In this document: in pieces, positions 7,470 to 32,922 of the stretch | How the letters are laid out: the number at the start of each line of letters is the position of its first letter | How positions within the stretch are numbered: the stretch's first letter is position 1 | Source: Pleodorina starrii | Taxonomy: Eukaryota; Chlorophyta; Chlorophyceae; Chlamydomonadales; Volvocaceae | Direction: 5' to 3' | NCBI GenBank assembly: GCA_030267565.1 | Contig: BRXU01000024.1 | Span: forward strand, 1,658,501 to 1,722,500 | DNA length: 64,000 nt | Notes under the pieces: generated by a model | What the model was told of the DNA's origin: nothing | The model's input: only the letters and a program-made list of their open reading frames with translations | The model's database searches: none | Translations under genes and position numbers: made by a program

Positions 7470-9343
7470 CCGGTCGCTGCGCGGCGGCAGCCACACAGTG
7501 GACGTCTGCAACCTCATGCCGAGCACAGACGTGGACCTCGAGGGGAAGGGGAAGGAGGCCAAAGCCACCCACCGCAGGGGGAAGAGCGAGGAGGTCCACA
7601 CAGACGCCCACCATAATTACATTTTGAGAAAGCGTACGCCGTACGGAGACCGTCTTGGGAACACATGCCCAAAGCGCGAGCGGGGCCCCTTCCAGGAGTG
7701 GGTTTATAATGGGTCGATGGTCAGTGCGAATACAACTGTCAGAGCCGATAAGGGATTGCCAAGTCCGCACAACAATGGGAGTCTGTCTGAACCCACACTC
7801 ACGCCATAAGAAACCAACACCTGCCAGGTGAGAGTGAACGCCCGCTCACATCACCGGTGATGTAAAACGCAAACGAACAGAGCGGACTGGGGTCGATAAA
7901 CGCACCCCCGATCTGCGTCCCTAGACGCCAACTTAAGGCCCGCCTGCTCGTATCAAGTTCCAGCTACCGTAACACCTCAACAGCGCGGCAGCATCAGAGG
8001 AAAGAACCGCGCTACTCTACCGGCAAACCGTCTGCCGCCTGCAGAGCCACCGCTCCGGAACCAGCCGCAGTACGGACGACCCTCCCAAACAGATACACGT
8101 AAGCAGCCAACCCAACTACTAATCTGAGAACGGTCTGCGCCGGCTCTGCGCTCCTTCAAACCCAATTTTAGCGTTCGCGTGGCTGCCTCTTAAATAAGAA
8201 TTACCATGACGAAGGACAATTGAAAGGGCGGTGCACCCGCCGCAACAAAGCTGCAAACATGACTTCCGTCTTCAGCCCGTGCACGCTTGCTGTGTGGCGA
8301 CCCATGAACGGCTGGTTTGCTGGTCGGGGGGTCGGAGTGGGTTGGGACCTTGCTGGCTGGAGTTTCTTGTCCGGACCTGTGCTCTTCCTGGTAATGCCTG
8401 GGGCGCCACAAACGACGGCTTGGTGGCGCTGAACTGCCTGCCGCAGCGGTCACACTCGGGTTTGAACGAGTTGCAAACGAGTAGGGTGTTGAATCGTTGA
8501 AGATCGCCCACCTACGCCCGCCTGCTTCTTACGCTTCAGTTCCTTCAACTTCGAGCTCGCGGGCCTCGAGACGTCGAGAGCGCGCGAGTAGGCTGGCCAG
8601 GCGGGGTGGTGAGAGCTGGTTCTGGTAGGGTCGGAGGTGTGTGACGCCTCTCGGGTGGCTCTCTCTTAGCGCGGCCCGCAGTCGTCTGCGCCGCTGTGTT
8701 GATTGGTCAGGGGCCGTGGAGGGTGCCTCTGGCTGGCGCGAGTGAGGCAGCGAGGCGCGCGGAGCGGAACAGATGGACATGGCCGCGCGCCCGCCCCTGC
8801 GCTGTGTCTCGGCCCGGTCAGGGGCCACGGTGCTCGTCCTACCTGAGGGCAAGTCGCCCACAGTGTAACACCCGTCACACAAGAGGCCCAGGGTGAAATA
8901 TCTACAAGATAATACACCGCCTGTACAAGGCCGACAGAGGCCGAAGGATATGACAAGCGGAGTATGTAGGAAACTTCGGGAAAAGGGACCGCAGTAGGAG
9001 GCATGAGGTGTCAGAAGGCCCGCGAACAACAATGCACGCGGACGGAAAGAGCTGAAAGAGTGCTGCCTTGAGCGCCGGGACAGCAGCCCAGCGCTTGCCA
9101 GGGCGAGACAGGGACCTCAGGGAGACACCACGTTTCAATATCGCAACGCCTAAATACGGTACAAGTAAATGCGGAACCGTGGAGGGCACTCGGGCCTCCC
9201 ATAGAGCGAACATGGCTGCGCTCGCGCTAGGCCACAGCTAGCTACGGTTGCTGCAAGAAAGCGTGATGCAGAGCAAGTCTCACAGCCTGAGGCGGGGCCG
9301 GGGTATTGCGGGGCGGGGCGGGGCGAGGCGGGTACGGCCGGCC
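7470..9343. other. Noncoding left flank of the repeat array
   Basis: Moderate-GC sequence with only short, biased-composition open frames on both strands. I see no domain, RNA gene or mobile-element terminus. GC rises over the last 60 bases (9290-9343) with GGGGC motifs leading into the hexanucleotide tract. Confidence 0.4.
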
Positions 9344-10831
9344 GGGGCCGGGGCCGGGGCCGGGGCCGGGGCCGGGGGCGGGGCCGGGGCCGGGGCCGGG
9401 GCCGGGGCCGGGGCCGGGGCCGGGGCCGGGGCCGGGGCCGGGGCCGGGGCCGGGGCCGGGGCCGGGGCCGGGGCCGGGGCCGGGGCCGGGGCCGGGGCCG
9501 GGGCCGGGGCCGGGGCCGGGGCCGGGGCCGGGGCCGGGGCCGGGGCCGGGGCCGGGGCCGGGGCCGGGGCCGGGGCCGGGGCCGGGGCCGGGGCCGGGGC
9601 CGGGGCCGGGGCCGGGGCCGGGGCCGGGGCCGGGGCCGGGGCCGGGGCCGGGGCCGGGGCCGGGGCCGGGGCCGGGGCCGGGGCCGGGGCCGGGGCCGGG
9701 GCCGGGGCCGGGGCCGGGGCCGGGGCCGGGGCCGGGGCCGGGGCCGGGGCCGGGGCCGGGGCCGGGGCCGGGGCCGGGGCCGGGGCCGGGGCCGGGGCCG
9801 GGGCCGGGGCCGGGGCCGGGGCCGGGGCCGGGGCCGGGGCCGGGGCCGGGGCCGGGGCCGGGGCCGGGGCCGGGGCCGGGGCCGGGGCCGGGGCCGGGGC
9901 CGGGGCCGGGGCCGGGGCCGGGGCCGGGGCCGGGGCCGGGGCCGGGGCCGGGGCCGGGGCCGGGGCCGGGGCCGGGGCCGGGGCCGGGGCCGGGGCCGGG
10001 GCCGGGGCCGGGGCCGGGGCCGGGGCCGGGGCCGGGGCCGGGGCCGGGGCCGGGGCCGGGGCCGGGGCCGGGCCCGGGCCCGGGGCCGGGGCCGGGGCCG
10101 GGGCCGGGGCCGGGGCCGGGGCCGGGGCCGGGGCCGGGGCCGGGGCCGGGGCCGGGGCCGGGGCCGGGGCCGGGGCCGGGGCCGGGGCCGGGGCCGGGGC
10201 CGGGGCCGGGGCCGGGGCCGGGGCCGGGGCCGGGGCCGGGGCCGGGGCCGGGGCCGGGGCCGGGGCCGGGGCCGGGGCCGGGGCCGGGGCCGGGGCCGGG
10301 GCCGGGGCCGGGGCCGGGGCCGGGGCCGGGGCCGGGGCCGGGGCCGGGGCCGGGGCCGGGGCCGGGGCCGGGGCCGGGGCCGGGGCCGGGGCCGGGGCCG
10401 GGGCCGGGGCCGGGGCCGGGGCCGGGGCCGGGGCCGGGGCCGGGGCCGGGGCCGGGGCCGGGGCCGGGGCCGGGGCCGGGGCCGGGGCCGGGGCCGGGGC
10501 CGGGGCCGGGGCCGGGGCCGGGGCCGGGGCCGGGGCCGGGGCCGGGGCCGGGGCCGGGGCCGGGGCCGGGGCCGGGGCCGGGGCCGGGGCCGGGGCCGGG
10601 GCCGGGGCCGGGGCCGGGGCCGGGGCCGGGGCCGGGGCCGGGGCCGGGGCCGGGGCCGGGGCCGGGGCCGGGGCCGGGGCCGGGGCCGGGGCCGGGGCCG
10701 GGGCCGGGGCCGGGGCCGGGGCCGGGGCCGGGGCCGGGGCCGGGGCCGGGGCCGGGGCCGGGGCCGGGGCCGGGGCCGGGGCCGGGGCCGGGGCCGGGGC
10801 CGGGGCCGGGGCCGGGGCCGGGGCCGGGGCC
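9344..10831. repeat. (GGGGCC)248 hexanucleotide expansion
   Basis: 1,488 bp are made of 248 consecutive six-base units. All are GGGGCC except one GGGGGC (9374-9379) and two GGGCCC (10070-10081). This is the repeat unit that is expanded at the human C9orf72 locus, where it forms G-quadruplexes and is translated as dipeptide repeats. Here all reading frames through the tract are open: Gly-Ala, Gly-Pro and Gly-Arg on the plus strand, and Pro-Ala, Pro-Gly and Pro-Arg on the minus strand. The right end joins directly to the first unit of the 22-kb tandem array, whose other units carry only two or four GGGGCC copies at the same position. The exact length depends on correct assembly of a hard repeat. 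Confidence 0.95.
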
Positions 10832-11068
10832 GGGGCTTCGTCAAGCGGGTCATACTCCGGAGGATCGTATTCCTCATCAGAGAAGTGGAGCTGGAGGCCA
10901 TCGCCTGCTCCATCCGCCTCGCTGCCGCTGCCACCGTATGCATACAAATCCTCCTCCATGCCATTGGCCTTATCAACACGCTTTACAACGCTTGGTGGCT
11001 GATAACCATTATAGCCAAAAGACTGGCGCAATGTTTTTTTGTAATAGACATTCAAAATGACAAGCGCG
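10832..11068 (-). pseudogene. Acidic coding fragment abutting the GGGGCC tract
   Basis: The minus strand encodes a coding-like segment with an aromatic/Pro part (SFGYNGYQPPSVVKRVDKA) followed by a Gly/Ser/Asp/Glu-rich acidic part ending in YDPPEYDPLDEA. The frame then runs straight into the GGCCCC repeat as Pro-Ala dipeptides. Copies occur in every array unit, starting at 13786, 16740, 20857, 24974 and 29091. The family is unrecognised. The upstream portion lacks coding bias, so this looks like the C-terminal exon of an element or host gene cut by the unit junction. The expansion may have begun in, or next to, a Pro-Ala-encoding stretch. Confidence 0.45.
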
Positions 11069-12603
11069 TGTCGCAAGCGGCAAGTTGTGACCGCCATGTA
11101 TTGAGCCCCGGCAGACAAGGGGTTGGTGTCGGCTTCCTTGAAGCCCGAAAAGGGCGGGGCCCCGTTCAATCCGTACGGGTTAGGTTGAGTGCTAGGGCGG
11201 CAAGGGCGTGAAGTGTGAGAGTGTCGACATTCCTGCTGATAGACAGGCGGAGCTTTATTCCCGAAATGCCTGCTAGCCGAGTCGTTAGCAAGGCCTGCCG
11301 GCGCCGCGCGAAGCGCGTCATCCCGCCGGGTGCATGAGCGCATCGACCGAAATACGGCATCATTTCCAAAGCGAGCGGCGAGGGCGTCAAGTGTGAGAGT
11401 GTCGACATTCCTGCTGATAGACAGCCAGAGCTTTATATCTGAAATGCCTGCGGCTTCAGCAATCCGCCCCATGTTTAGCATCGCGCGCCGTCTCGGCACT
11501 GTGCAACTCTTCCGGCCAGCGCATTGGCTGAAGTTACTTGATAGTAGACATAGAGTGTATCATTTACACATCACGCAGGCTGACTTGCCAATAGAAGGAC
11601 AGCGGAACTGTTTGCGAGGGTCGCGACGACGTGCCATGGAGACTGCCAAACTGGTTTTTACTCATGCGATGTTGGGTTCCTATAATAAAGATACCATGCA
11701 ATAAAGAATGTAATCTTTTACTTATTCAGTGTTTCCGTTGGCTGAGATCTTACACTTGCCCTTTTACACATATCACACATCACACGCACGGACATGGGCA
11801 ATCCTACAGGGCGGGGCCTCTTAATAAGTGGGGGCATAAGGATAGGCCGTCGGGCATCTACGAAAGGATATGTGCTCGGAAAGGATCGCTGTGCGGAAGG
11901 GGGCCCTGCCCAAAAAAGCAAAATGGAGCGGAACAAGGGATGTCGGCTTCCTTGAAGCCATTAAATCCGTACGGGTGGAGTTGAGTGCTAGGGACTTGGG
12001 CCGAACCGCTGGATGCCCGCTGCCTAAGCGAGAACGCCTCTGGGGCTATGACAATGTGGTTTCGGGCAGTTTCACCGCGAGAGGTTCGCTGGTGGGGCTT
12101 CGGCCCTGCCCGGGGAGTGGGCCCCGTGAACAAAGTGGCCGTCTGTCACGTTGGGATGTAGCCGCAAGGCGGCGCGGAATGTACGTCAGGCTGAACAGGT
12201 TGGCTCCTGTCCACTCAATACCGGTATTCCCACCCCGCATCCTGGGGACTTGGGAGCGTTAGGTAGGCGTGCGAGTCGGAAGAGACTAAGTGAAGGGCCC
12301 TGTCGTCTATCTACTTGCGCGGGAGACCCAAATGGGTGGAACAGCTCTACTGCAGCTTTTGACAGCGGATCTCGACAGCCATGGCTTCGATGCGTCCCAG
12401 GTGGAACCCGTACGGTCTGGCCTTCCCAACCCCAACCCCGCCGCGTGCCATTGTAGAAGGTCATTTGGCTCCAAGGGGACTAGGGGACAAGAGGACTCGG
12501 TGTGGTACCTTAGATGTTACAAGGGTTGGGTCCCGATCATAAGGGAACTGCTGGAAATAGCCTGCGACAGGCCTTAAGTACCGTCTGAAGCCCAAAGGGG
12601 GCT

Positions 12604-12679
12604 TATGCCGTACTGGGCCTTACACCGAGTTCCTCAGAAGTAGCTAGATCACTGGATAGCCAAGTACCTCTCGACGGTT
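12604..12679. repeat. 76-bp direct repeat (DR), unit 1 copy
   Basis: Begins TATGCCGTACTGGGCCTTAC and ends CTCTCGACGGTT. It recurs once in each of units 1-2 and twice in each longer unit. The second copy in the longer units (20572-20647, 24689-24764, 28806-28881, 32923-32998) differs at one base (TTCCTC versus TTCATC). The two copies bracket the hairpin plus inverted-repeat segment. Confidence 0.9.
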
Positions 12680-12778
12680 TATCTAACGCGGAAGCGCAAA
12701 GTTGAACATCAACAGTTGCATATTCAACATGTCTATAACAATGTAGCAGGCAGTGTAGCAGGCAATGTAGCAGGCAGT

Positions 12779-12831
12779 ATAATTCGTATTAATGCGACTG
12801 CAAATCTTGTAGTCGCATTAATACGAATTAT
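12779..12831. repeat. AT-rich perfect hairpin, 21-bp stem
   Basis: Stem 12779-12799 (ATAATTCGTATTAATGCGAC...) pairs perfectly with 12811-12831 across an 11-base loop. It follows three short GTAGCAGGCA repeats. It recurs at 15733, 18687, 22804, 26921 and 31038. A diverged relative without the perfect stem lies near 33490-33550. Confidence 0.9.
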
Positions 12832-12861
12832 TCTTAGATGTTCTTAGAGGTTCTTAGATGA

Positions 12862-13523
12862 GCTGCATCCAAGAACCTCCGAGCCGCGGCGGACCTGACA
12901 TTCATCAAGTATGACGCCAAGGCCGCCCTGGCGACCAAATACCCGTTCATCAATGACCGCCTCGCCCTGACTGACGGCGATCGAGACGCCGTCGGAAAGC
13001 AGCTCCAGGCGGCAGCTAAGTCGCTCACGAGCTTTGAAGAGCAGCTGACGGAGCTCGAGGTTGTTCCCAATACGACGGAGGCCTTCACCCAGACGCTGCT
13101 CATCACTTGCAAGTTGCAGGCGGCTCTCGAGGTGCCCCCGGCCGGAGCGCCCCCACCCCGGGGTACCCGGAGTCCATCCACGAGGTAGAGCGGCTGACCA
13201 GTGAAATCGCGTCCCTGGAGCAGCAGCACAACGAGGCCAACGCGCAGTTGGCGGAGGCCACTAAGGCGCTCGTGAAGCACGCCGAGGCGCTCAGCGAGGA
13301 GAAGGAGCGAGTTCAGGCGATCGAGGCGGAGCTAAAGGCCGAGCGCCAGAGGTTCATCGAAAAGTACGCCAAGGTGAAGCGGGACCTGAGCAACGCGGAG
13401 GACGAGCTGCACAAAACCCGGCGCCGCTCTGAGCCGAGCTCCGAAGCACTCACATCTCGGTTCATGGACTTCCTCAAGACGCTCGAAAACCCGAACAAAC
13501 GCGCGCGAAGCACGGACAACTAG
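12862..13523 (+). pseudogene. ORF-a: coiled-coil protein of unknown element, unit 1 (5'-truncated, frameshifted)
   Basis: Two overlapping frames with strong G/C-ending codons form what looks like one protein. The first (12862-13188) encodes a helical segment with AASKNLRAAADLTFIKYDAK and LTSFEEQLTELEVVP. The second (open from 13107, stop 13523) encodes a clear coiled coil (EVERLTSEIASLEQQ; AEALSEEKERVQAIEAEL) and ends in a basic tail NKRARSTDN. Moving between them needs a -1 shift in a C/G-rich overlap near 13130-13175. I see no canonical slippery heptamer, so it may be a fixed mutation rather than programmed frameshifting. The N-terminal part is missing in this orientation. A structural, gag-like or ORF1-like role is inferred from coiled coil, basic tail and repetition only. 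Confidence 0.5.
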
Positions 13524-13601
13524 TGGCCGTCTGCAGGCCTGCTGTCGAGCTCCCGGTGTTGTCGAGTTGGTCGTTCGGTGTTCTACCAAGTGTAACGAAA
13601 C

Positions 13602-13766
13602 ATGGATGACGAAATCGAGCCCGTGTCTGCCCGCTCCCGCACCGCAGAGTCACAACCAGCAGTCTTGCAAGCCGCCGCGTTGCAAGAAATAGTCACAGCA
13701 TGCATCCGCGGCGCCATCCCCGAGATCGTTTCCCAAGTACGTCGCGGCGGCGGCGGCTTGCAAGAC
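13602..13766 (+). pseudogene. ORF-b: truncated second ORF of the unknown element
   Basis: An ATG lies 78 bp after the ORF-a stop and opens a frame starting MDDEIEPVSARSRTAE, followed by a hydrophobic helix (LQEIVTACIRGAIPEIVSQV). It is cut off at the GGGGCC junction after about 55 codons. Copies at 16556 and 19510, and in later units, are likewise truncated, either at the junction or at the inverted-repeat turn. Close spacing after ORF-a suggests a two-ORF element whose second, possibly enzymatic, ORF is missing from the window. Confidence 0.4.
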
Positions 13767-13785
13767 CCGGGGCCGGGGCCGGGGC

Positions 13786-16739
13786 GGGGCTTCGTCAAGC
13801 GGGTCATACTCCGGAGGATCGTATTCCTCATCAGAGAAGTGGAGCTGGAGGCCATCGCCTGCTCCATCCGCCTCGCTGCCGCTGCCACCGTATGCATACA
13901 AATCCTCCTCCATGCCATTGGCCTTATCAACACGCTTTACAACGCTTGGTGGCTGATAACCATTATAGCCAAAAGACTGGCGCAATGTTTTTTTGTAATA
14001 GACATTCAAAATGACAAGCGCGTGTCGCAAGCGGCAAGTTGTGACCGCCATGTATTGAGCCCCGGCAGACAAGGGGTTGGTGTCGGCTTCCTTGAAGCCC
14101 GAAAAGGGCGGGGCCCCGTTCAATCCGTACGGGTTAGGTTGAGTGCTAGGGCGGCAAGGGCGTGAAGTGTGAGAGTGTCGACATTCCTGCTGATAGACAG
14201 GCGGAGCTTTATTCCCGAAATGCCTGCTAGCCGAGTCGTTAGCAAGGCCTGCCGGCGCCGCGCGAAGCGCGTCATCCCGCCGGGTGCATGAGCGCATCGA
14301 CCGAAATACGGCATCATTTCCAAAGCGAGCGGCGAGGGCGTCAAGTGTGAGAGTGTCGACATTCCTGCTGATAGACAGCCAGAGCTTTATATCTGAAATG
14401 CCTGCGGCTTCAGCAATCCGCCCCATGTTTAGCATCGCGCGCCGTCTCGGCACTGTGCAACTCTTCCGGCCAGCGCATTGGCTGAAGTTACTTGATAGTA
14501 GACATAGAGTGTATCATTTACACATCACGCAGGCTGACTTGCCAATAGAAGGACAGCGGAACTGTTTGCGAGGGTCGCGACGACGTGCCATGGAGACTGC
14601 CAAACTGGTTTTTACTCATGCGATGTTGGGTTCCTATAATAAAGATACCATGCAATAAAGAATGTAATCTTTTACTTATTCAGTGTTTCCGTTGGCTGAG
14701 ATCTTACACTTGCCCTTTTACACATATCACACATCACACGCACGGACATGGGCAATCCTACAGGGCGGGGCCTCTTAATAAGTGGGGGCATAAGGATAGG
14801 CCGTCGGGCATCTACGAAAGGATATGTGCTCGGAAAGGATCGCTGTGCGGAAGGGGGCCCTGCCCAAAAAAGCAAAATGGAGCGGAACAAGGGATGTCGG
14901 CTTCCTTGAAGCCATTAAATCCGTACGGGTGGAGTTGAGTGCTAGGGACTTGGGCCGAACCGCTGGATGCCCGCTGCCTAAGCGAGAACGCCTCTGGGGC
15001 TATGACAATGTGGTTTCGGGCAGTTTCACCGCGAGAGGTTCGCTGGTGGGGCTTCGGCCCTGCCCGGGGAGTGGGCCCCGTGAACAAAGTGGCCGTCTGT
15101 CACGTTGGGATGTAGCCGCAAGGCGGCGCGGAATGTACGTCAGGCTGAACAGGTTGGCTCCTGTCCACTCAATACCGGTATTCCCACCCCGCATCCTGGG
15201 GACTTGGGAGCGTTAGGTAGGCGTGCGAGTCGGAAGAGACTAAGTGAAGGGCCCTGTCGTCTATCTACTTGCGCGGGAGACCCAAATGGGTGGAACAGCT
15301 CTACTGCAGCTTTTGACAGCGGATCTCGACAGCCATGGCTTCGATGCGTCCCAGGTGGAACCCGTACGGTCTGGCCTTCCCAACCCCAACCCCGCCGCGT
15401 GCCATTGTAGAAGGTCATTTGGCTCCAAGGGGACTAGGGGACAAGAGGACTCGGTGTGGTACCTTAGATGTTACAAGGGTTGGGTCCCGATCATAAGGGA
15501 ACTGCTGGAAATAGCCTGCGACAGGCCTTAAGTACCGTCTGAAGCCCAAAGGGGGCTTATGCCGTACTGGGCCTTACACCGAGTTCCTCAGAAGTAGCTA
15601 GATCACTGGATAGCCAAGTACCTCTCGACGGTTTATCTAACGCGGAAGCGCAAAGTTGAACATCAACAGTTGCATATTCAACATGTCTATAACAATGTAG
15701 CAGGCAGTGTAGCAGGCAATGTAGCAGGCAGTATAATTCGTATTAATGCGACTGCAAATCTTGTAGTCGCATTAATACGAATTATTCTTAGATGTTCTTA
15801 GAGGTTCTTAGATGAGCTGCATCCAAGAACCTCCGAGCCGCGGCGGACCTGACATTCATCAAGTATGACGCCAAGGCCGCCCTGGCGACCAAATACCCGT
15901 TCATCAATGACCGCCTCGCCCTGACTGACGGCGATCGAGACGCCGTCGGAAAGCAGCTCCAGGCGGCAGCTAAGTCGCTCACGAGCTTTGAAGAGCAGCT
16001 GACGGAGCTCGAGGTTGTTCCCAATACGACGGAGGCCTTCACCCAGACGCTGCTCATCACTTGCAAGTTGCAGGCGGCTCTCGAGGTGCCCCCGGCCGGA
16101 GCGCCCCCACCCCGGGGTACCCGGAGTCCATCCACGAGGTAGAGCGGCTGACCAGTGAAATCGCGTCCCTGGAGCAGCAGCACAACGAGGCCAACGCGCA
16201 GTTGGCGGAGGCCACTAAGGCGCTCGTGAAGCACGCCGAGGCGCTCAGCGAGGAGAAGGAGCGAGTTCAGGCGATCGAGGCGGAGCTAAAGGCCGAGCGC
16301 CAGAGGTTCATCGAAAAGTACGCCAAGGTGAAGCGGGACCTGAGCAACGCGGAGGACGAGCTGCACAAAACCCGGCGCCGCTCTGAGCCGAGCTCCGAAG
16401 CACTCACATCTCGGTTCATGGACTTCCTCAAGACGCTCGAAAACCCGAACAAACGCGCGCGAAGCACGGACAACTAGTGGCCGTCTGCAGGCCTGCTGTC
16501 GAGCTCCCGGTGTTGTCGAGTTGGTCGTTCGGTGTTCTACCAAGTGTAACGAAACATGGATGACGAAATCGAGCCCGTGTCTGCCCGCTCCCGCACCGCA
16601 GAGTCACAACCAGCAGTCTTGCAAGCCGCCGCGTTGCAAGAAATAGTCACAGCATGCATCCGCGGCGCCATCCCCGAGATCGTTTCCCAAGTACGTCGCG
16701 GCGGCGGCGGCTTGCAAGACCCGGGGCCGGGGCCGGGGC
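13786..16739. repeat. Tandem array unit 2 (2,954 bp)
   Basis: Appears identical to unit 1 by direct reading, including the frameshift in ORF-a. The junctions at both ends consist of (GGGGCC)2 followed by GGGGC. Confidence 0.95.
15816..16477 (+). pseudogene. ORF-a copy, unit 2
   Basis: Identical to the unit 1 copy, with the same -1 frame break and the same basic C-terminal tail. Confidence 0.5.
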
Positions 16740-18767
16740 GGGGCTTCGTCAAGCGGGTCATACTCCGGAGGATCGTATTCCTCATCAGAGAAGTGGAGCT
16801 GGAGGCCATCGCCTGCTCCATCCGCCTCGCTGCCGCTGCCACCGTATGCATACAAATCCTCCTCCATGCCATTGGCCTTATCAACACGCTTTACAACGCT
16901 TGGTGGCTGATAACCATTATAGCCAAAAGACTGGCGCAATGTTTTTTTGTAATAGACATTCAAAATGACAAGCGCGTGTCGCAAGCGGCAAGTTGTGACC
17001 GCCATGTATTGAGCCCCGGCAGACAAGGGGTTGGTGTCGGCTTCCTTGAAGCCCGAAAAGGGCGGGGCCCCGTTCAATCCGTACGGGTTAGGTTGAGTGC
17101 TAGGGCGGCAAGGGCGTGAAGTGTGAGAGTGTCGACATTCCTGCTGATAGACAGGCGGAGCTTTATTCCCGAAATGCCTGCTAGCCGAGTCGTTAGCAAG
17201 GCCTGCCGGCGCCGCGCGAAGCGCGTCATCCCGCCGGGTGCATGAGCGCATCGACCGAAATACGGCATCATTTCCAAAGCGAGCGGCGAGGGCGTCAAGT
17301 GTGAGAGTGTCGACATTCCTGCTGATAGACAGCCAGAGCTTTATATCTGAAATGCCTGCGGCTTCAGCAATCCGCCCCATGTTTAGCATCGCGCGCCGTC
17401 TCGGCACTGTGCAACTCTTCCGGCCAGCGCATTGGCTGAAGTTACTTGATAGTAGACATAGAGTGTATCATTTACACATCACGCAGGCTGACTTGCCAAT
17501 AGAAGGACAGCGGAACTGTTTGCGAGGGTCGCGACGACGTGCCATGGAGACTGCCAAACTGGTTTTTACTCATGCGATGTTGGGTTCCTATAATAAAGAT
17601 ACCATGCAATAAAGAATGTAATCTTTTACTTATTCAGTGTTTCCGTTGGCTGAGATCTTACACTTGCCCTTTTACACATATCACACATCACACGCACGGA
17701 CATGGGCAATCCTACAGGGCGGGGCCTCTTAATAAGTGGGGGCATAAGGATAGGCCGTCGGGCATCTACGAAAGGATATGTGCTCGGAAAGGATCGCTGT
17801 GCGGAAGGGGGCCCTGCCCAAAAAAGCAAAATGGAGCGGAACAAGGGATGTCGGCTTCCTTGAAGCCATTAAATCCGTACGGGTGGAGTTGAGTGCTAGG
17901 GACTTGGGCCGAACCGCTGGATGCCCGCTGCCTAAGCGAGAACGCCTCTGGGGCTATGACAATGTGGTTTCGGGCAGTTTCACCGCGAGAGGTTCGCTGG
18001 TGGGGCTTCGGCCCTGCCCGGGGAGTGGGCCCCGTGAACAAAGTGGCCGTCTGTCACGTTGGGATGTAGCCGCAAGGCGGCGCGGAATGTACGTCAGGCT
18101 GAACAGGTTGGCTCCTGTCCACTCAATACCGGTATTCCCACCCCGCATCCTGGGGACTTGGGAGCGTTAGGTAGGCGTGCGAGTCGGAAGAGACTAAGTG
18201 AAGGGCCCTGTCGTCTATCTACTTGCGCGGGAGACCCAAATGGGTGGAACAGCTCTACTGCAGCTTTTGACAGCGGATCTCGACAGCCATGGCTTCGATG
18301 CGTCCCAGGTGGAACCCGTACGGTCTGGCCTTCCCAACCCCAACCCCGCCGCGTGCCATTGTAGAAGGTCATTTGGCTCCAAGGGGACTAGGGGACAAGA
18401 GGACTCGGTGTGGTACCTTAGATGTTACAAGGGTTGGGTCCCGATCATAAGGGAACTGCTGGAAATAGCCTGCGACAGGCCTTAAGTACCGTCTGAAGCC
18501 CAAAGGGGGCTTATGCCGTACTGGGCCTTACACCGAGTTCCTCAGAAGTAGCTAGATCACTGGATAGCCAAGTACCTCTCGACGGTTTATCTAACGCGGA
18601 AGCGCAAAGTTGAACATCAACAGTTGCATATTCAACATGTCTATAACAATGTAGCAGGCAGTGTAGCAGGCAATGTAGCAGGCAGTATAATTCGTATTAA
18701 TGCGACTGCAAATCTTGTAGTCGCATTAATACGAATTATTCTTAGATGTTCTTAGAGGTTCTTAGAT

Positions 18768-20476
18768 GAGCTGCATCCAAGAACCTCCGAGCCGCGGCGG
18801 ACCTGACATTCATCAAGTATGACGCCAAGGCCGCCCTGGCGACCAAATACCCGTTCATCAATGACCGCCTCGCCCTGACTGACGGCGATCGAGACGCCGT
18901 CGGAAAGCAGCTCCAGGCGGCAGCTAAGTCGCTCACGAGCTTTGAAGAGCAGCTGACGGAGCTCGAGGTTGTTCCCAATACGACGGAGGCCTTCACCCAG
19001 ACGCTGCTCATCACTTGCAAGTTGCAGGCGGCTCTCGAGGTGCCCCCGGCCGGAGCGCCCCCACCCCGGGGTACCCGGAGTCCATCCACGAGGTAGAGCG
19101 GCTGACCAGTGAAATCGCGTCCCTGGAGCAGCAGCACAACGAGGCCAACGCGCAGTTGGCGGAGGCCACTAAGGCGCTCGTGAAGCACGCCGAGGCGCTC
19201 AGCGAGGAGAAGGAGCGAGTTCAGGCGATCGAGGCGGAGCTAAAGGCCGAGCGCCAGAGGTTCATCGAAAAGTACGCCAAGGTGAAGCGGGACCTGAGCA
19301 ACGCGGAGGACGAGCTGCACAAAACCCGGCGCCGCTCTGAGCCGAGCTCCGAAGCACTCACATCTCGGTTCATGGACTTCCTCAAGACGCTCGAAAACCC
19401 GAACAAACGCGCGCGAAGCACGGACAACTAGTGGCCGTCTGCAGGCCTGCTGTCGAGCTCCCGGTGTTGTCGAGTTGGTCGTTCGGTGTTCTACCAAGTG
19501 TAACGAAACATGGATGACGAAATCGAGCCCGTGTCTGCCCGCTCCCGCACCGCAGAGTCACAACCAGCAGTCTTGCAAGCCGCCGCGTTGCAAGAAATAG
19601 TCACAGCATGCATCCGCGGCGCCATCCCCGAGATCGTTTCCCAAGTACGTCGCGGCGGCGGCGGCTTGCAAGACTGCTGGTTGTGACTCTGCGGTGCGGG
19701 AGCGGGCAGACACGGGCTCGATTTCGTCATCCATGCTTCGTTACACTTGGTAGAACACCGAACGACCAACTCGACAACACCGGGAGCTCGACAGCAGGCC
19801 TGCAGACGGCCACTAGTTGTCCGTGCTTCGCGCGCGTTTGTTCGGGTTTTCGAGCGTCTTGAGGAAGTCCATGAACCGAGATGTGAGTGCTTCGGAGCTC
19901 GGCTCAGAGCGGCGCCGGGTTTTGTGCAGCTCGTCCTCCGCGTTGCTCAGGTCCCGCTTCACCTTGGCGTACTTTTCGATGAACCTCTGGCGCTCGGCCT
20001 TTAGCTCCGCCTCGATCGCCTGAACTCGCTCCTTCTCCTCGCTGAGCGCCTCGGCGTGCTTCACGAGCGCCTTAGTGGCCTCCGCCAACTGCGCGTTGGC
20101 CTCGTTGTGCTGCTGCTCCAGGGACGCGATTTCACTGGTCAGCCGCTCTACCTCGTGGATGGACTCCGGGTACCCCGGGGTGGGGGCGCTCCGGCCGGGG
20201 GCACCTCGAGAGCCGCCTGCAACTTGCAAGTGATGAGCAGCGTCTGGGTGAAGGCCTCCGTCGTATTGGGAACAACCTCGAGCTCCGTCAGCTGCTCTTC
20301 AAAGCTCGTGAGCGACTTAGCTGCCGCCTGGAGCTGCTTTCCGACGGCGTCTCGATCGCCGTCAGTCAGGGCGAGGCGGTCATTGATGAACGGGTATTTG
20401 GTCGCCAGGGCGGCCTTGGCGTCATACTTGATGAATGTCAGGTCCGCCGCGGCTCGGAGGTTCTTGGATGCAGCTC
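18768..20476. repeat. 0.8-kb inverted repeat, unit 3
   Basis: Left arm 18768-19582 is the near-perfect reverse complement of 19663-20476, with a spacer of roughly 75 bp around 19583-19660. The arms differ at a few bases, for example GAAAC versus GAAGC beside the ORF-b start, so they are not a simple sequencing fold-back of one molecule. The structure would form a very stable cruciform or hairpin. Confidence 0.93.
18770..19431 (+). pseudogene. ORF-a copy, unit 3 left arm
   Basis: Identical plus-strand copy forming most of the left arm of the inverted repeat. Confidence 0.5.
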
Positions 20477-20571
20477 GGAGCTGGCCCACGGCCAGAGTGA
20501 CGCGCGCTGCTCTCTCGCCGAAGGTGCTCTCGACAGCCTCGATTACCTCCTGGTACTGCTCGGACTCCGTG
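19813..20571 (-). pseudogene. ORF-a copy, unit 3 right arm (longest version)
   Basis: The inverted copy extends further upstream than the plus-strand copies, adding about 33 codons with good coding bias (ESEQYQEVIEAVESTFGERA and VTLAVGQLR) before the shared helical segment. A possible acceptor lies just upstream (GGCCCAG|TACGGC). The same -1 frame break is present. This is the best copy for deducing the original protein's N-terminal side. No catalytic motif is seen. Confidence 0.5.
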
Positions 20572-22884
20572 TATGCCGTACTGGGCCTTACACCGAGTTC
20601 ATCAGAAGTAGCTAGATCACTGGATAGCCAAGTACCTCTCGACGGTTGGCTCGCCCCTATAGGGGCGAGAGCCTTAGTGGTCGGTAACAAACGGTCACAA
20701 CGGTGCATAGTTGAGTATTGGTGTACCTCTGTACCGGGGATATTGTCCTTTATACTCGTCCTATGTACATTGGGCACTGTACCATAGCGCTGCCGGAAAA
20801 GGCTCCGTGAGCCAAGACAGGACGTACGGGGCCGGGGCCGGGGCCGGGGCCGGGGCGGGGCTTCGTCAAGCGGGTCATACTCCGGAGGATCGTATTCCTC
20901 ATCAGAGAAGTGGAGCTGGAGGCCATCGCCTGCTCCATCCGCCTCGCTGCCGCTGCCACCGTATGCATACAAATCCTCCTCCATGCCATTGGCCTTATCA
21001 ACACGCTTTACAACGCTTGGTGGCTGATAACCATTATAGCCAAAAGACTGGCGCAATGTTTTTTTGTAATAGACATTCAAAATGACAAGCGCGTGTCGCA
21101 AGCGGCAAGTTGTGACCGCCATGTATTGAGCCCCGGCAGACAAGGGGTTGGTGTCGGCTTCCTTGAAGCCCGAAAAGGGCGGGGCCCCGTTCAATCCGTA
21201 CGGGTTAGGTTGAGTGCTAGGGCGGCAAGGGCGTGAAGTGTGAGAGTGTCGACATTCCTGCTGATAGACAGGCGGAGCTTTATTCCCGAAATGCCTGCTA
21301 GCCGAGTCGTTAGCAAGGCCTGCCGGCGCCGCGCGAAGCGCGTCATCCCGCCGGGTGCATGAGCGCATCGACCGAAATACGGCATCATTTCCAAAGCGAG
21401 CGGCGAGGGCGTCAAGTGTGAGAGTGTCGACATTCCTGCTGATAGACAGCCAGAGCTTTATATCTGAAATGCCTGCGGCTTCAGCAATCCGCCCCATGTT
21501 TAGCATCGCGCGCCGTCTCGGCACTGTGCAACTCTTCCGGCCAGCGCATTGGCTGAAGTTACTTGATAGTAGACATAGAGTGTATCATTTACACATCACG
21601 CAGGCTGACTTGCCAATAGAAGGACAGCGGAACTGTTTGCGAGGGTCGCGACGACGTGCCATGGAGACTGCCAAACTGGTTTTTACTCATGCGATGTTGG
21701 GTTCCTATAATAAAGATACCATGCAATAAAGAATGTAATCTTTTACTTATTCAGTGTTTCCGTTGGCTGAGATCTTACACTTGCCCTTTTACACATATCA
21801 CACATCACACGCACGGACATGGGCAATCCTACAGGGCGGGGCCTCTTAATAAGTGGGGGCATAAGGATAGGCCGTCGGGCATCTACGAAAGGATATGTGC
21901 TCGGAAAGGATCGCTGTGCGGAAGGGGGCCCTGCCCAAAAAAGCAAAATGGAGCGGAACAAGGGATGTCGGCTTCCTTGAAGCCATTAAATCCGTACGGG
22001 TGGAGTTGAGTGCTAGGGACTTGGGCCGAACCGCTGGATGCCCGCTGCCTAAGCGAGAACGCCTCTGGGGCTATGACAATGTGGTTTCGGGCAGTTTCAC
22101 CGCGAGAGGTTCGCTGGTGGGGCTTCGGCCCTGCCCGGGGAGTGGGCCCCGTGAACAAAGTGGCCGTCTGTCACGTTGGGATGTAGCCGCAAGGCGGCGC
22201 GGAATGTACGTCAGGCTGAACAGGTTGGCTCCTGTCCACTCAATACCGGTATTCCCACCCCGCATCCTGGGGACTTGGGAGCGTTAGGTAGGCGTGCGAG
22301 TCGGAAGAGACTAAGTGAAGGGCCCTGTCGTCTATCTACTTGCGCGGGAGACCCAAATGGGTGGAACAGCTCTACTGCAGCTTTTGACAGCGGATCTCGA
22401 CAGCCATGGCTTCGATGCGTCCCAGGTGGAACCCGTACGGTCTGGCCTTCCCAACCCCAACCCCGCCGCGTGCCATTGTAGAAGGTCATTTGGCTCCAAG
22501 GGGACTAGGGGACAAGAGGACTCGGTGTGGTACCTTAGATGTTACAAGGGTTGGGTCCCGATCATAAGGGAACTGCTGGAAATAGCCTGCGACAGGCCTT
22601 AAGTACCGTCTGAAGCCCAAAGGGGGCTTATGCCGTACTGGGCCTTACACCGAGTTCCTCAGAAGTAGCTAGATCACTGGATAGCCAAGTACCTCTCGAC
22701 GGTTTATCTAACGCGGAAGCGCAAAGTTGAACATCAACAGTTGCATATTCAACATGTCTATAACAATGTAGCAGGCAGTGTAGCAGGCAATGTAGCAGGC
22801 AGTATAATTCGTATTAATGCGACTGCAAATCTTGTAGTCGCATTAATACGAATTATTCTTAGATGTTCTTAGAGGTTCTTAGAT

Positions 22885-24593
22885 GAGCTGCATCCAAGAA
22901 CCTCCGAGCCGCGGCGGACCTGACATTCATCAAGTATGACGCCAAGGCCGCCCTGGCGACCAAATACCCGTTCATCAATGACCGCCTCGCCCTGACTGAC
23001 GGCGATCGAGACGCCGTCGGAAAGCAGCTCCAGGCGGCAGCTAAGTCGCTCACGAGCTTTGAAGAGCAGCTGACGGAGCTCGAGGTTGTTCCCAATACGA
23101 CGGAGGCCTTCACCCAGACGCTGCTCATCACTTGCAAGTTGCAGGCGGCTCTCGAGGTGCCCCCGGCCGGAGCGCCCCCACCCCGGGGTACCCGGAGTCC
23201 ATCCACGAGGTAGAGCGGCTGACCAGTGAAATCGCGTCCCTGGAGCAGCAGCACAACGAGGCCAACGCGCAGTTGGCGGAGGCCACTAAGGCGCTCGTGA
23301 AGCACGCCGAGGCGCTCAGCGAGGAGAAGGAGCGAGTTCAGGCGATCGAGGCGGAGCTAAAGGCCGAGCGCCAGAGGTTCATCGAAAAGTACGCCAAGGT
23401 GAAGCGGGACCTGAGCAACGCGGAGGACGAGCTGCACAAAACCCGGCGCCGCTCTGAGCCGAGCTCCGAAGCACTCACATCTCGGTTCATGGACTTCCTC
23501 AAGACGCTCGAAAACCCGAACAAACGCGCGCGAAGCACGGACAACTAGTGGCCGTCTGCAGGCCTGCTGTCGAGCTCCCGGTGTTGTCGAGTTGGTCGTT
23601 CGGTGTTCTACCAAGTGTAACGAAACATGGATGACGAAATCGAGCCCGTGTCTGCCCGCTCCCGCACCGCAGAGTCACAACCAGCAGTCTTGCAAGCCGC
23701 CGCGTTGCAAGAAATAGTCACAGCATGCATCCGCGGCGCCATCCCCGAGATCGTTTCCCAAGTACGTCGCGGCGGCGGCGGCTTGCAAGACTGCTGGTTG
23801 TGACTCTGCGGTGCGGGAGCGGGCAGACACGGGCTCGATTTCGTCATCCATGCTTCGTTACACTTGGTAGAACACCGAACGACCAACTCGACAACACCGG
23901 GAGCTCGACAGCAGGCCTGCAGACGGCCACTAGTTGTCCGTGCTTCGCGCGCGTTTGTTCGGGTTTTCGAGCGTCTTGAGGAAGTCCATGAACCGAGATG
24001 TGAGTGCTTCGGAGCTCGGCTCAGAGCGGCGCCGGGTTTTGTGCAGCTCGTCCTCCGCGTTGCTCAGGTCCCGCTTCACCTTGGCGTACTTTTCGATGAA
24101 CCTCTGGCGCTCGGCCTTTAGCTCCGCCTCGATCGCCTGAACTCGCTCCTTCTCCTCGCTGAGCGCCTCGGCGTGCTTCACGAGCGCCTTAGTGGCCTCC
24201 GCCAACTGCGCGTTGGCCTCGTTGTGCTGCTGCTCCAGGGACGCGATTTCACTGGTCAGCCGCTCTACCTCGTGGATGGACTCCGGGTACCCCGGGGTGG
24301 GGGCGCTCCGGCCGGGGGCACCTCGAGAGCCGCCTGCAACTTGCAAGTGATGAGCAGCGTCTGGGTGAAGGCCTCCGTCGTATTGGGAACAACCTCGAGC
24401 TCCGTCAGCTGCTCTTCAAAGCTCGTGAGCGACTTAGCTGCCGCCTGGAGCTGCTTTCCGACGGCGTCTCGATCGCCGTCAGTCAGGGCGAGGCGGTCAT
24501 TGATGAACGGGTATTTGGTCGCCAGGGCGGCCTTGGCGTCATACTTGATGAATGTCAGGTCCGCCGCGGCTCGGAGGTTCTTGGATGCAGCTC
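22885..24593. repeat. 0.8-kb inverted repeat, unit 4
   Basis: Second copy of the head-to-head structure, same arms and spacer. Confidence 0.93.
22887..23548 (+). pseudogene. ORF-a copy, unit 4 left arm
   Basis: Identical plus-strand copy with the same frame break. Confidence 0.5.
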
Positions 24594-24688
24594 GGAGCTG
24601 GCCCACGGCCAGAGTGACGCGCGCTGCTCTCTCGCCGAAGGTGCTCTCGACAGCCTCGATTACCTCCTGGTACTGCTCGGACTCCGTG
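23930..24688 (-). pseudogene. ORF-a copy, unit 4 right arm
   Basis: Identical to the unit 3 right-arm copy, including the extra upstream codons and the frame break. Confidence 0.5.
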
Positions 24689-27001
24689 TATGCCGTACTG
24701 GGCCTTACACCGAGTTCATCAGAAGTAGCTAGATCACTGGATAGCCAAGTACCTCTCGACGGTTGGCTCGCCCCTATAGGGGCGAGAGCCTTAGTGGTCG
24801 GTAACAAACGGTCACAACGGTGCATAGTTGAGTATTGGTGTACCTCTGTACCGGGGATATTGTCCTTTATACTCGTCCTATGTACATTGGGCACTGTACC
24901 ATAGCGCTGCCGGAAAAGGCTCCGTGAGCCAAGACAGGACGTACGGGGCCGGGGCCGGGGCCGGGGCCGGGGCGGGGCTTCGTCAAGCGGGTCATACTCC
25001 GGAGGATCGTATTCCTCATCAGAGAAGTGGAGCTGGAGGCCATCGCCTGCTCCATCCGCCTCGCTGCCGCTGCCACCGTATGCATACAAATCCTCCTCCA
25101 TGCCATTGGCCTTATCAACACGCTTTACAACGCTTGGTGGCTGATAACCATTATAGCCAAAAGACTGGCGCAATGTTTTTTTGTAATAGACATTCAAAAT
25201 GACAAGCGCGTGTCGCAAGCGGCAAGTTGTGACCGCCATGTATTGAGCCCCGGCAGACAAGGGGTTGGTGTCGGCTTCCTTGAAGCCCGAAAAGGGCGGG
25301 GCCCCGTTCAATCCGTACGGGTTAGGTTGAGTGCTAGGGCGGCAAGGGCGTGAAGTGTGAGAGTGTCGACATTCCTGCTGATAGACAGGCGGAGCTTTAT
25401 TCCCGAAATGCCTGCTAGCCGAGTCGTTAGCAAGGCCTGCCGGCGCCGCGCGAAGCGCGTCATCCCGCCGGGTGCATGAGCGCATCGACCGAAATACGGC
25501 ATCATTTCCAAAGCGAGCGGCGAGGGCGTCAAGTGTGAGAGTGTCGACATTCCTGCTGATAGACAGCCAGAGCTTTATATCTGAAATGCCTGCGGCTTCA
25601 GCAATCCGCCCCATGTTTAGCATCGCGCGCCGTCTCGGCACTGTGCAACTCTTCCGGCCAGCGCATTGGCTGAAGTTACTTGATAGTAGACATAGAGTGT
25701 ATCATTTACACATCACGCAGGCTGACTTGCCAATAGAAGGACAGCGGAACTGTTTGCGAGGGTCGCGACGACGTGCCATGGAGACTGCCAAACTGGTTTT
25801 TACTCATGCGATGTTGGGTTCCTATAATAAAGATACCATGCAATAAAGAATGTAATCTTTTACTTATTCAGTGTTTCCGTTGGCTGAGATCTTACACTTG
25901 CCCTTTTACACATATCACACATCACACGCACGGACATGGGCAATCCTACAGGGCGGGGCCTCTTAATAAGTGGGGGCATAAGGATAGGCCGTCGGGCATC
26001 TACGAAAGGATATGTGCTCGGAAAGGATCGCTGTGCGGAAGGGGGCCCTGCCCAAAAAAGCAAAATGGAGCGGAACAAGGGATGTCGGCTTCCTTGAAGC
26101 CATTAAATCCGTACGGGTGGAGTTGAGTGCTAGGGACTTGGGCCGAACCGCTGGATGCCCGCTGCCTAAGCGAGAACGCCTCTGGGGCTATGACAATGTG
26201 GTTTCGGGCAGTTTCACCGCGAGAGGTTCGCTGGTGGGGCTTCGGCCCTGCCCGGGGAGTGGGCCCCGTGAACAAAGTGGCCGTCTGTCACGTTGGGATG
26301 TAGCCGCAAGGCGGCGCGGAATGTACGTCAGGCTGAACAGGTTGGCTCCTGTCCACTCAATACCGGTATTCCCACCCCGCATCCTGGGGACTTGGGAGCG
26401 TTAGGTAGGCGTGCGAGTCGGAAGAGACTAAGTGAAGGGCCCTGTCGTCTATCTACTTGCGCGGGAGACCCAAATGGGTGGAACAGCTCTACTGCAGCTT
26501 TTGACAGCGGATCTCGACAGCCATGGCTTCGATGCGTCCCAGGTGGAACCCGTACGGTCTGGCCTTCCCAACCCCAACCCCGCCGCGTGCCATTGTAGAA
26601 GGTCATTTGGCTCCAAGGGGACTAGGGGACAAGAGGACTCGGTGTGGTACCTTAGATGTTACAAGGGTTGGGTCCCGATCATAAGGGAACTGCTGGAAAT
26701 AGCCTGCGACAGGCCTTAAGTACCGTCTGAAGCCCAAAGGGGGCTTATGCCGTACTGGGCCTTACACCGAGTTCCTCAGAAGTAGCTAGATCACTGGATA
26801 GCCAAGTACCTCTCGACGGTTTATCTAACGCGGAAGCGCAAAGTTGAACATCAACAGTTGCATATTCAACATGTCTATAACAATGTAGCAGGCAGTGTAG
26901 CAGGCAATGTAGCAGGCAGTATAATTCGTATTAATGCGACTGCAAATCTTGTAGTCGCATTAATACGAATTATTCTTAGATGTTCTTAGAGGTTCTTAGA
27001 T

Positions 27002-28710
27002 GAGCTGCATCCAAGAACCTCCGAGCCGCGGCGGACCTGACATTCATCAAGTATGACGCCAAGGCCGCCCTGGCGACCAAATACCCGTTCATCAATGACC
27101 GCCTCGCCCTGACTGACGGCGATCGAGACGCCGTCGGAAAGCAGCTCCAGGCGGCAGCTAAGTCGCTCACGAGCTTTGAAGAGCAGCTGACGGAGCTCGA
27201 GGTTGTTCCCAATACGACGGAGGCCTTCACCCAGACGCTGCTCATCACTTGCAAGTTGCAGGCGGCTCTCGAGGTGCCCCCGGCCGGAGCGCCCCCACCC
27301 CGGGGTACCCGGAGTCCATCCACGAGGTAGAGCGGCTGACCAGTGAAATCGCGTCCCTGGAGCAGCAGCACAACGAGGCCAACGCGCAGTTGGCGGAGGC
27401 CACTAAGGCGCTCGTGAAGCACGCCGAGGCGCTCAGCGAGGAGAAGGAGCGAGTTCAGGCGATCGAGGCGGAGCTAAAGGCCGAGCGCCAGAGGTTCATC
27501 GAAAAGTACGCCAAGGTGAAGCGGGACCTGAGCAACGCGGAGGACGAGCTGCACAAAACCCGGCGCCGCTCTGAGCCGAGCTCCGAAGCACTCACATCTC
27601 GGTTCATGGACTTCCTCAAGACGCTCGAAAACCCGAACAAACGCGCGCGAAGCACGGACAACTAGTGGCCGTCTGCAGGCCTGCTGTCGAGCTCCCGGTG
27701 TTGTCGAGTTGGTCGTTCGGTGTTCTACCAAGTGTAACGAAACATGGATGACGAAATCGAGCCCGTGTCTGCCCGCTCCCGCACCGCAGAGTCACAACCA
27801 GCAGTCTTGCAAGCCGCCGCGTTGCAAGAAATAGTCACAGCATGCATCCGCGGCGCCATCCCCGAGATCGTTTCCCAAGTACGTCGCGGCGGCGGCGGCT
27901 TGCAAGACTGCTGGTTGTGACTCTGCGGTGCGGGAGCGGGCAGACACGGGCTCGATTTCGTCATCCATGCTTCGTTACACTTGGTAGAACACCGAACGAC
28001 CAACTCGACAACACCGGGAGCTCGACAGCAGGCCTGCAGACGGCCACTAGTTGTCCGTGCTTCGCGCGCGTTTGTTCGGGTTTTCGAGCGTCTTGAGGAA
28101 GTCCATGAACCGAGATGTGAGTGCTTCGGAGCTCGGCTCAGAGCGGCGCCGGGTTTTGTGCAGCTCGTCCTCCGCGTTGCTCAGGTCCCGCTTCACCTTG
28201 GCGTACTTTTCGATGAACCTCTGGCGCTCGGCCTTTAGCTCCGCCTCGATCGCCTGAACTCGCTCCTTCTCCTCGCTGAGCGCCTCGGCGTGCTTCACGA
28301 GCGCCTTAGTGGCCTCCGCCAACTGCGCGTTGGCCTCGTTGTGCTGCTGCTCCAGGGACGCGATTTCACTGGTCAGCCGCTCTACCTCGTGGATGGACTC
28401 CGGGTACCCCGGGGTGGGGGCGCTCCGGCCGGGGGCACCTCGAGAGCCGCCTGCAACTTGCAAGTGATGAGCAGCGTCTGGGTGAAGGCCTCCGTCGTAT
28501 TGGGAACAACCTCGAGCTCCGTCAGCTGCTCTTCAAAGCTCGTGAGCGACTTAGCTGCCGCCTGGAGCTGCTTTCCGACGGCGTCTCGATCGCCGTCAGT
28601 CAGGGCGAGGCGGTCATTGATGAACGGGTATTTGGTCGCCAGGGCGGCCTTGGCGTCATACTTGATGAATGTCAGGTCCGCCGCGGCTCGGAGGTTCTTG
28701 GATGCAGCTC
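27002..28710. repeat. 0.8-kb inverted repeat, unit 5
   Basis: Third copy of the head-to-head structure. Confidence 0.93.
27004..27665 (+). pseudogene. ORF-a copy, unit 5 left arm
   Basis: Identical plus-strand copy with the same frame break. Confidence 0.5.
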
Positions 28711-28805
28711 GGAGCTGGCCCACGGCCAGAGTGACGCGCGCTGCTCTCTCGCCGAAGGTGCTCTCGACAGCCTCGATTACCTCCTGGTACTGCTCGGACT
28801 CCGTG
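28047..28805 (-). pseudogene. ORF-a copy, unit 5 right arm
   Basis: Identical to the unit 3 right-arm copy. Confidence 0.5.
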
Positions 28806-31118: not shown

Positions 31119-32827
31119 GAGCTGCATCCAAGAACCTCCGAGCCGCGGCGGACCTGACATTCATCAAGTATGACGCCAAGGCCGCCCTGGCGACCAAATA
31201 CCCGTTCATCAATGACCGCCTCGCCCTGACTGACGGCGATCGAGACGCCGTCGGAAAGCAGCTCCAGGCGGCAGCTAAGTCGCTCACGAGCTTTGAAGAG
31301 CAGCTGACGGAGCTCGAGGTTGTTCCCAATACGACGGAGGCCTTCACCCAGACGCTGCTCATCACTTGCAAGTTGCAGGCGGCTCTCGAGGTGCCCCCGG
31401 CCGGAGCGCCCCCACCCCGGGGTACCCGGAGTCCATCCACGAGGTAGAGCGGCTGACCAGTGAAATCGCGTCCCTGGAGCAGCAGCACAACGAGGCCAAC
31501 GCGCAGTTGGCGGAGGCCACTAAGGCGCTCGTGAAGCACGCCGAGGCGCTCAGCGAGGAGAAGGAGCGAGTTCAGGCGATCGAGGCGGAGCTAAAGGCCG
31601 AGCGCCAGAGGTTCATCGAAAAGTACGCCAAGGTGAAGCGGGACCTGAGCAACGCGGAGGACGAGCTGCACAAAACCCGGCGCCGCTCTGAGCCGAGCTC
31701 CGAAGCACTCACATCTCGGTTCATGGACTTCCTCAAGACGCTCGAAAACCCGAACAAACGCGCGCGAAGCACGGACAACTAGTGGCCGTCTGCAGGCCTG
31801 CTGTCGAGCTCCCGGTGTTGTCGAGTTGGTCGTTCGGTGTTCTACCAAGTGTAACGAAACATGGATGACGAAATCGAGCCCGTGTCTGCCCGCTCCCGCA
31901 CCGCAGAGTCACAACCAGCAGTCTTGCAAGCCGCCGCGTTGCAAGAAATAGTCACAGCATGCATCCGCGGCGCCATCCCCGAGATCGTTTCCCAAGTACG
32001 TCGCGGCGGCGGCGGCTTGCAAGACTGCTGGTTGTGACTCTGCGGTGCGGGAGCGGGCAGACACGGGCTCGATTTCGTCATCCATGCTTCGTTACACTTG
32101 GTAGAACACCGAACGACCAACTCGACAACACCGGGAGCTCGACAGCAGGCCTGCAGACGGCCACTAGTTGTCCGTGCTTCGCGCGCGTTTGTTCGGGTTT
32201 TCGAGCGTCTTGAGGAAGTCCATGAACCGAGATGTGAGTGCTTCGGAGCTCGGCTCAGAGCGGCGCCGGGTTTTGTGCAGCTCGTCCTCCGCGTTGCTCA
32301 GGTCCCGCTTCACCTTGGCGTACTTTTCGATGAACCTCTGGCGCTCGGCCTTTAGCTCCGCCTCGATCGCCTGAACTCGCTCCTTCTCCTCGCTGAGCGC
32401 CTCGGCGTGCTTCACGAGCGCCTTAGTGGCCTCCGCCAACTGCGCGTTGGCCTCGTTGTGCTGCTGCTCCAGGGACGCGATTTCACTGGTCAGCCGCTCT
32501 ACCTCGTGGATGGACTCCGGGTACCCCGGGGTGGGGGCGCTCCGGCCGGGGGCACCTCGAGAGCCGCCTGCAACTTGCAAGTGATGAGCAGCGTCTGGGT
32601 GAAGGCCTCCGTCGTATTGGGAACAACCTCGAGCTCCGTCAGCTGCTCTTCAAAGCTCGTGAGCGACTTAGCTGCCGCCTGGAGCTGCTTTCCGACGGCG
32701 TCTCGATCGCCGTCAGTCAGGGCGAGGCGGTCATTGATGAACGGGTATTTGGTCGCCAGGGCGGCCTTGGCGTCATACTTGATGAATGTCAGGTCCGCCG
32801 CGGCTCGGAGGTTCTTGGATGCAGCTC
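31119..32827. repeat. 0.8-kb inverted repeat, unit 6
   Basis: Fourth copy of the head-to-head structure. Confidence 0.93.
31121..31782 (+). pseudogene. ORF-a copy, unit 6 left arm
   Basis: Identical plus-strand copy with the same frame break. Confidence 0.5.
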
Positions 32828-32922
32828 GGAGCTGGCCCACGGCCAGAGTGACGCGCGCTGCTCTCTCGCCGAAGGTGCTCTCGACAGCCTCGATTACCTC
32901 CTGGTACTGCTCGGACTCCGTG
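32164..32922 (-). pseudogene. ORF-a copy, unit 6 right arm
   Basis: Identical to the unit 3 right-arm copy. The sequence beyond it runs 255 bp to the array's right boundary. Confidence 0.5.

Follow-up and report, generated by a model that had tools for sequence, protein, structure and literature searches.

Does a run of 248 GGGGCC hexamers in the genome of a green alga represent a counterpart of the human C9orf72 expansion, or is it a repeat of another kind? The run was met in Pleodorina starrii, in a stretch of 64,000 nucleotides (hereafter the window; C24:1658501-1722500) of an assembly of 136,057,477 bp in 95 contigs. A sequence-only reading had reported 248 near-perfect units of pathogenic length by human measure, open in every frame into non-repeat flank, and had drawn from them a specific parallel with C9orf72. 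The count holds. The tract occupies positions 9344..10831 of the plus strand and totals 248 hexamers, 245 of them perfect, in exact runs of 5 (9344-9373), 115 (9380-10069) and 125 units (10082-10831). These are split by one GGGGGC (9374-9379) and two GGGCCC units (10070-10081), the 6-base register being preserved through all three variants. Tandem Repeats Finder delimits the tract at 9340-10836, with period 6, 249.5 copies and 99% matches, and there is no N in the window. Both the tract length and the perfect unit identity described here are those of a single assembly. The G4Hunter score of the tract is 1.99, and its G strand should form G-quadruplexes.

Such a length is far beyond chance. An exact scan of prokaryotes, with one genome for each of 84,980 species, gave 86 GGGGCC stretches of at least 8 units, the longest of 27.3 units, and seven stretches came from viral contigs. 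The disease range of the repeat in humans lies above about 30 units, and in the assembly the 248-unit total and the 115- and 125-unit runs all fall within it, as had been proposed. The open frames carry less weight. Stop-to-stop stretches cover the tract in all six frames (9205-11208, 9242-10999 and 9291-11057 on the plus strand; 9153-10982, 9245-10840 and 9283-11559 on the minus strand) and extend from it into non-repeat flanks, so that the earlier statement is true for each of them. However, a motif with neither A nor T contains no stop codon; hence the openness is trivial and is no evidence of translation.

The window copy of the tract forms the left margin of a tandem array whose six units all lie on the plus strand. 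Unit 1, the edge (10832..13766), has the 248-unit tract on its left and ends in a junction that we call type A; unit 2 (13767..16720; 2,954 bp) has two GGGGCC at its start and junction A at both ends; unit 3 (16721..20826) also starts with two GGGGCC, includes an extra segment and ends in a junction of type B; units 4-6 (20827..33177), of 4,117 bp each, carry four GGGGCC at every start (20827, 24944 and 29061), and the array finishes at 33177. The starts thus read 248, 2, 2, 4, 4 and 4 units, while the 2,930 bp that follow the tract show 0 differences in all pairs of the six. Six identical segments beside tracts so unlike imply that the length changed without an adjacent substitution. Within the 4,117-bp unit there is an inverted repeat (18768..20476), present as well in array copies, with arms of 819 bp (18768-19586 and 19658-20476) that are identical at 818 of 819 positions and are separated by a 71-bp spacer.

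Each of the two junction types has an end that falls within the tract. At junction A (13767 and 16721) the sequence ...GCAAGAC meets CCGGGGCC, and no bases are clearly common to the two, the break being placed 17 bp into the second arm of the inverted repeat. At junction B (20827, 24944 and 29061) the array end, GACGTA|TGAG, is joined to the tract and shares GTA with the left flank of the tract, GGGTACGG. Equally, junction A can be seen as the product of a deletion of 1,163 bp from a unit of type B (4,117 minus 2,954), with the loss of most of one arm and two hexamers. A small feature bears on the order of events: a GGGGC pentamer precedes GGGGCTTCGTC in all five short units and in six of the seven tract-bearing dispersed copies (C39 being the exception), and the edge copy is without it. 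The edge copy has lost what the short units keep, so the long state of the tract looks derived by this comparison; the edge tract, we infer, grew once the array was in place.

The sequences on either side of the tract recur elsewhere in the genome. On the left, a remnant of about 55 bp around GAGGCGGGTACGGC (9288..9343, plus strand; boundary judged by eye) is common to the copies C13, C1a, C27, C1b, C24c and C39, and the window copy appears truncated left of 9288. On the right, the flank (10832..11013, plus strand) was searched with the 177 bp adjoining the tract; scoring of 40 out of 45 candidates gave 14 matches besides the six array copies, and the same 14 loci came out of a search at the protein level. 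The sequence that follows within the tandem unit (11014..11818, plus strand) is a further dispersed repeat found in at least 40 places of the genome, with 39 of 1299 candidates scored; a third search for the surrounding repeats scored 40 of 272. The dispersed set considered below contains 15 loci, namely the 14 right-flank matches and C1:5364193 (C1a), which may form with the match at C1:5369446 the two halves of one copy. Two of the dispersed copies share 95% identity over some 2 kb and diverge past one end, as is expected of a mobile repeat. The carrier is, judging by its copies, a dispersed repeat that is probably transposable; Pfam searches of 21 distinct window ORFs gave no transposase or other mobile-element protein at cut-off. 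The best reading of the tract is that of a G-rich hexamer microsatellite in a dispersed repeat, and not of a C9orf72-like gene feature.

Seven of the 15 dispersed loci hold GGGGCC units at the tract site, in numbers from 1 to 54: one in C39 and in C24c, three in C27, seven in C1b, 45 in C13, 43 in C1a (6+4+33) and 54 in C15 (19+2+33). Four others (C10a, C10b, C28 and C24a) are G-rich near the anchor with no run of at least two units there, although C10b and C28 each show a single run of two units at a distance of about 500-630 bp to the left, and the remaining four (C4, C24b, C2 and C1c) have other sequence at the site or are truncated; in our tally eight of the 15 loci have no run of at least two units near the site. 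The comparison of flanks drew on eight of the sites; C15, whose left-flank pattern was not found, is not among the pairwise identities. Copies C13, C27 and C1b are nearly indistinguishable outside the tract (174-175 of 175 positions on the right, 73-74 of 74 on the left) and carry 45, 3 and 7 units, respectively. C1a matches the family at 72 of 74 positions of the left flank and at only 108 of 148 of the right flank.

Long GGGGCC runs are not restricted to the window. Nine loci in the 136-Mb assembly have pure runs of at least 24 units, and the idea that such a run is unique to the window was rejected. They are the window itself (115 + 125 units), C24:814381 (127 + 33), C8:2317752 (199), C5:3328025 (90), C13:894722 (45), C1a and C15:1370333 (a 33-unit run each), C3:790716 (29) and C2:5962665 (24). 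The window tract has the greatest total length and C8:2317752 the longest uninterrupted run; four of the nine (window, C1a, C13 and C15) are at the tract site of the dispersed repeat. Overlapping exact matches numbered 564 forward + 329 reverse at 4 units and 351 + 249 at 24 units, the latter accounted for exactly by the pure runs of the nine loci. Other hexamers, counted at 8 units, are abundant too: GGGGCT with 476 + 188 matches, GGGGGC with 159 + 71, and GGGGTC, the reversed control of GGGGCT, with 121 + 76; reversed controls for GGGGCC and GGGGGC are uninformative because these motifs read backwards are rotations of themselves. GGGGCC is thus one of several long G-rich hexamers in this genome, and the notion that it is special among them was weakened, the arrays of GGGGCT, GGGGGC and GGGGTC being long as well. 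A search by array ends sees only arrays with an A or T within 11 bases of their right end and undercounts short ones; the 7-unit array at C1:8778106, found by the 4-unit search, was missed by it. Long arrays among those listed include C2:1327591-1327980 and C2:1346438-1346887 for GGGGCT, and C1:8924198-8924689 and C9:786029-786310 for GGGGGC.

Some of these loci have a setting of their own. C8:2308546 and C8:2317752 are 9 kb apart, have flanks 93-94% identical and carry 13 and 199 units, respectively; the pair adjoins long AGCCC pentamer arrays. At C24:814381 the 127 + 33 units lie within a minus-strand ATG frame that begins MATEVPGTAEDAPVTPG... and continues with Pro-Gly repeats; beyond the tract there is a stretch that we take to resemble the glycine loop of protein kinases, for which a 128-residue piece gave no Pfam match. 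At C3:790716, 29 GGCCCC units stand shortly before TTTATTTCAG and an exon-like frame; the tract is perhaps inside an intron, which would be the setting closest to that of C9orf72.

Further observations concern the window and the assembly at large. Arrays of TTTTAGGG start at base 3 of contig C2. Telomeres of this type have been described, in the part of the source consulted, from Chlamydomonas and certain other green algae (PMC9498494), so the arrays support an algal origin and make it likely. Several TTTTAGGG arrays are internal to a contig and far from its ends (C1:3588968-3594363), and degenerate telomere-like CCCTAAAA repeats are present in the window at 2730-2790. The segments 37327-44103 and 56881-63208 are a direct duplication, about 98% identical in two blocks, and both copies gave weak, below-cut-off Pfam matches to Glyco_transf_49. 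The contigs C24, C10 and C46 measure exactly 2,010,000, 3,477,500 and 679,000 bp, and such round sizes suggest automatic cutting during scaffolding.

Taking into account that: (i) the length at the tract site varies from copy to copy; (ii) near-identical flanks enclose unlike tracts, and (iii) the array junctions end in the tract, we favour, as the probable explanation, a hypervariable hexamer microsatellite carried by a probably transposable family and recently grown to 248 units in the edge copy of the array through the repair of breaks or stalled forks. In the model, the G-quadruplex-prone tract would stall or break replication forks. Repair copying, guided by homology or microhomology, would rejoin distant sequence to the tract and so seed the tandem array; re-copying of the tract during repair would then add hundreds of units to the edge copy. 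Expansion of this kind would not require any benefit to the cell. Large G4C2 gains in a C9orf72 knock-in mouse are reported to have come after a break close to the repeat and to have required homology-directed repair (PMC11162798). Two results weigh against the explanation, namely the eight dispersed loci with no run of at least two units and the lack of a mobile-element match at cut-off among the 21 ORFs. Several steps admit of variants. Gene conversion could be what keeps the units identical, and it would weaken the dating; a deletion may have produced junction A at a later stage, and unequal crossing-over may account for the growth of the array; and the few units found at the junctions could reflect template switching close to the edge of a tract that was already long. 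A stronger version, which we put forward tentatively and regard as rather doubtful, would make the GGGGCC tract a natural fragile site whose breakage seeded the array and drove the edge copy from a few to 248 units before a single substitution arose in 2.9 kb, in a lineage that tolerates long G-quadruplex-prone hexamers genome-wide. If it were true, the genome would contain three near-isogenic ladders of the C9orf72 motif (248/4/2, 45/7/3 and 199/13).

Replication slippage, or gains linked to mismatch repair, might have sufficed, with the position of the tract at the array edge coincidental to the duplication breakpoints. We consider this possible, though unlikely as a full account. The length varies also at dispersed copies that have no array in the flanks examined, a variation which slippage without breaks explains equally well, and further G-rich hexamers are long in the same genome. 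On the other hand, coincidence would have to place an end of junction A and an end of junction B each inside the tract, and, if the tract then measured about 30 bp, two independent hits in it within a unit of about 4 kb would be improbable, at least by an after-the-fact reckoning; moreover, 248 against 2-4 units with no adjacent substitution suggests large steps. Inflation by the assembler or by consensus polishing, whether of the tract, of the six identical units or of the two together, is a weaker candidate still. The absence of any difference over 2,930 bp in six units and the high purity of the 115- and 125-unit runs would be natural products of it, and the round length of contig C24 would be in keeping with automatic cutting. 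Yet the internal variant units hold register, the array is divided by two kinds of junction and is free of N, and runs of 24 units or more occur at eight other loci, several of them with unrelated surroundings.

Two further accounts would give the tract a product. In one of them it encodes the (Pro-Ala)n of an AUG-started minus-strand protein of the repeat family. The frame in question (9283..10959, minus strand) has its ATG at 10959, reads MEEDLYAYGG...DEEYDPPEYDPLDE and then (Pro-Ala)n, and opens with MEEDLYAYGGSGSEADGAGDGLQLHFSDEEYDPPEYDPLDEAPAPAP... across the whole tract; stops interrupt the matched stretch in only three of the 15 dispersed rows of the protein-level search, and third codon positions carry 69 of the 149 substitutions counted in 14 dispersed copies (C1a left out). 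Against this, the 45 synonymous changes among these 149 compare with an expected share of 0.20-0.33 without constraint, eight of the 14 copies contain one or more gaps of a length not divisible by three (the net frame being kept in four, C13, C27, C1b and C2), and the frame stops about 20 codons to the left of the tract. Pfam returned no match at curated cut-offs for the 21 distinct ORFs submitted, which are part of those in the window; below cut-off, 13038-13520 gave ten weak matches, and 39030-39659 and 59559-60344 gave a single weak match apiece. As a test of a functional coding tract, substitutions and gaps were indecisive to negative; the sequence fits a decayed frame, and a working protein is improbable. 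At C4:1120672, tried as a source gene, an exon-like acidic frame is present and the ORFs of the neighbouring 5 kb contain nothing that could be linked to it. The other account, a C9orf72-like element transcribed as part of a gene and yielding dipeptide repeats by AUG-independent translation, has in its favour the identical hexamer, the comparable length and the openness of every frame, but the last is guaranteed by the motif, no gene model was found around the tract, and its neighbours are dispersed and tandem repeats. We hold it to be very improbable. The specific parallel drawn at the outset is not supported: the carrier of the tract is a dispersed repeat bordering a tandem array, no Pfam match naming C9orf72 or a DENN-like family was obtained from the 21 ORFs submitted, and GGGGCT, GGGGGC and GGGGTC are long in the same genome.

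Hexamer microsatellites in mobile elements and GC-rich repeats in green algae are known; what is unusual here is the length of GGGGCC and the matched ladders. A survey of Chlamydomonas and Volvox found, in the portion consulted, that abundant motifs follow GC content and that introns and coding regions are the most repeat-dense in both (PMC3887541); its main text is without the string GGGGCC in that exact spelling, rotations such as CCGGGG apart, and the same portion describes no element-borne length series. In the literature searched, no alga is reported to have a long GGGGCC tract, and no element-borne GGGGCC series is described. A likeness is offered by the (CCCTCT)n of the human SVA at TAF1 in X-linked dystonia-parkinsonism, likewise a G-rich hexamer of variable number in a dispersed element; SVA repeat regions form G-quadruplexes, according to the parts of the sources consulted (PMC8775018, PMC12053379). 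The SVA, as far as those parts describe it, differs in its CCCTCT motif, in being a known retrotransposon and in having a known gene effect, so that for the GGGGCC tract of the window the likeness is a functional analogy only. With the C9orf72 G4C2 expansion the tract shares the hexamer, the hundreds of units and the large length changes, whereas it lies within a dispersed repeat that adjoins a tandem array, in a genome with many such tracts. Models of GGGGCC repeat disease mostly use inserted human repeats. If the lengths hold, one small genome would supply matched sites with little but the number of GGGGCC units to tell them apart, and the view that the locus is a useful natural case of repeat instability is strengthened by these paralogous short tracts. 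At such sites the effect of length by itself on instability, breakage, silencing and replication could be studied, as could the question of whether break repair is the source of large gains. Moreover, the toleration of several long tracts raises the question of what protects this genome from a hexamer that is pathogenic at such lengths in C9orf72.
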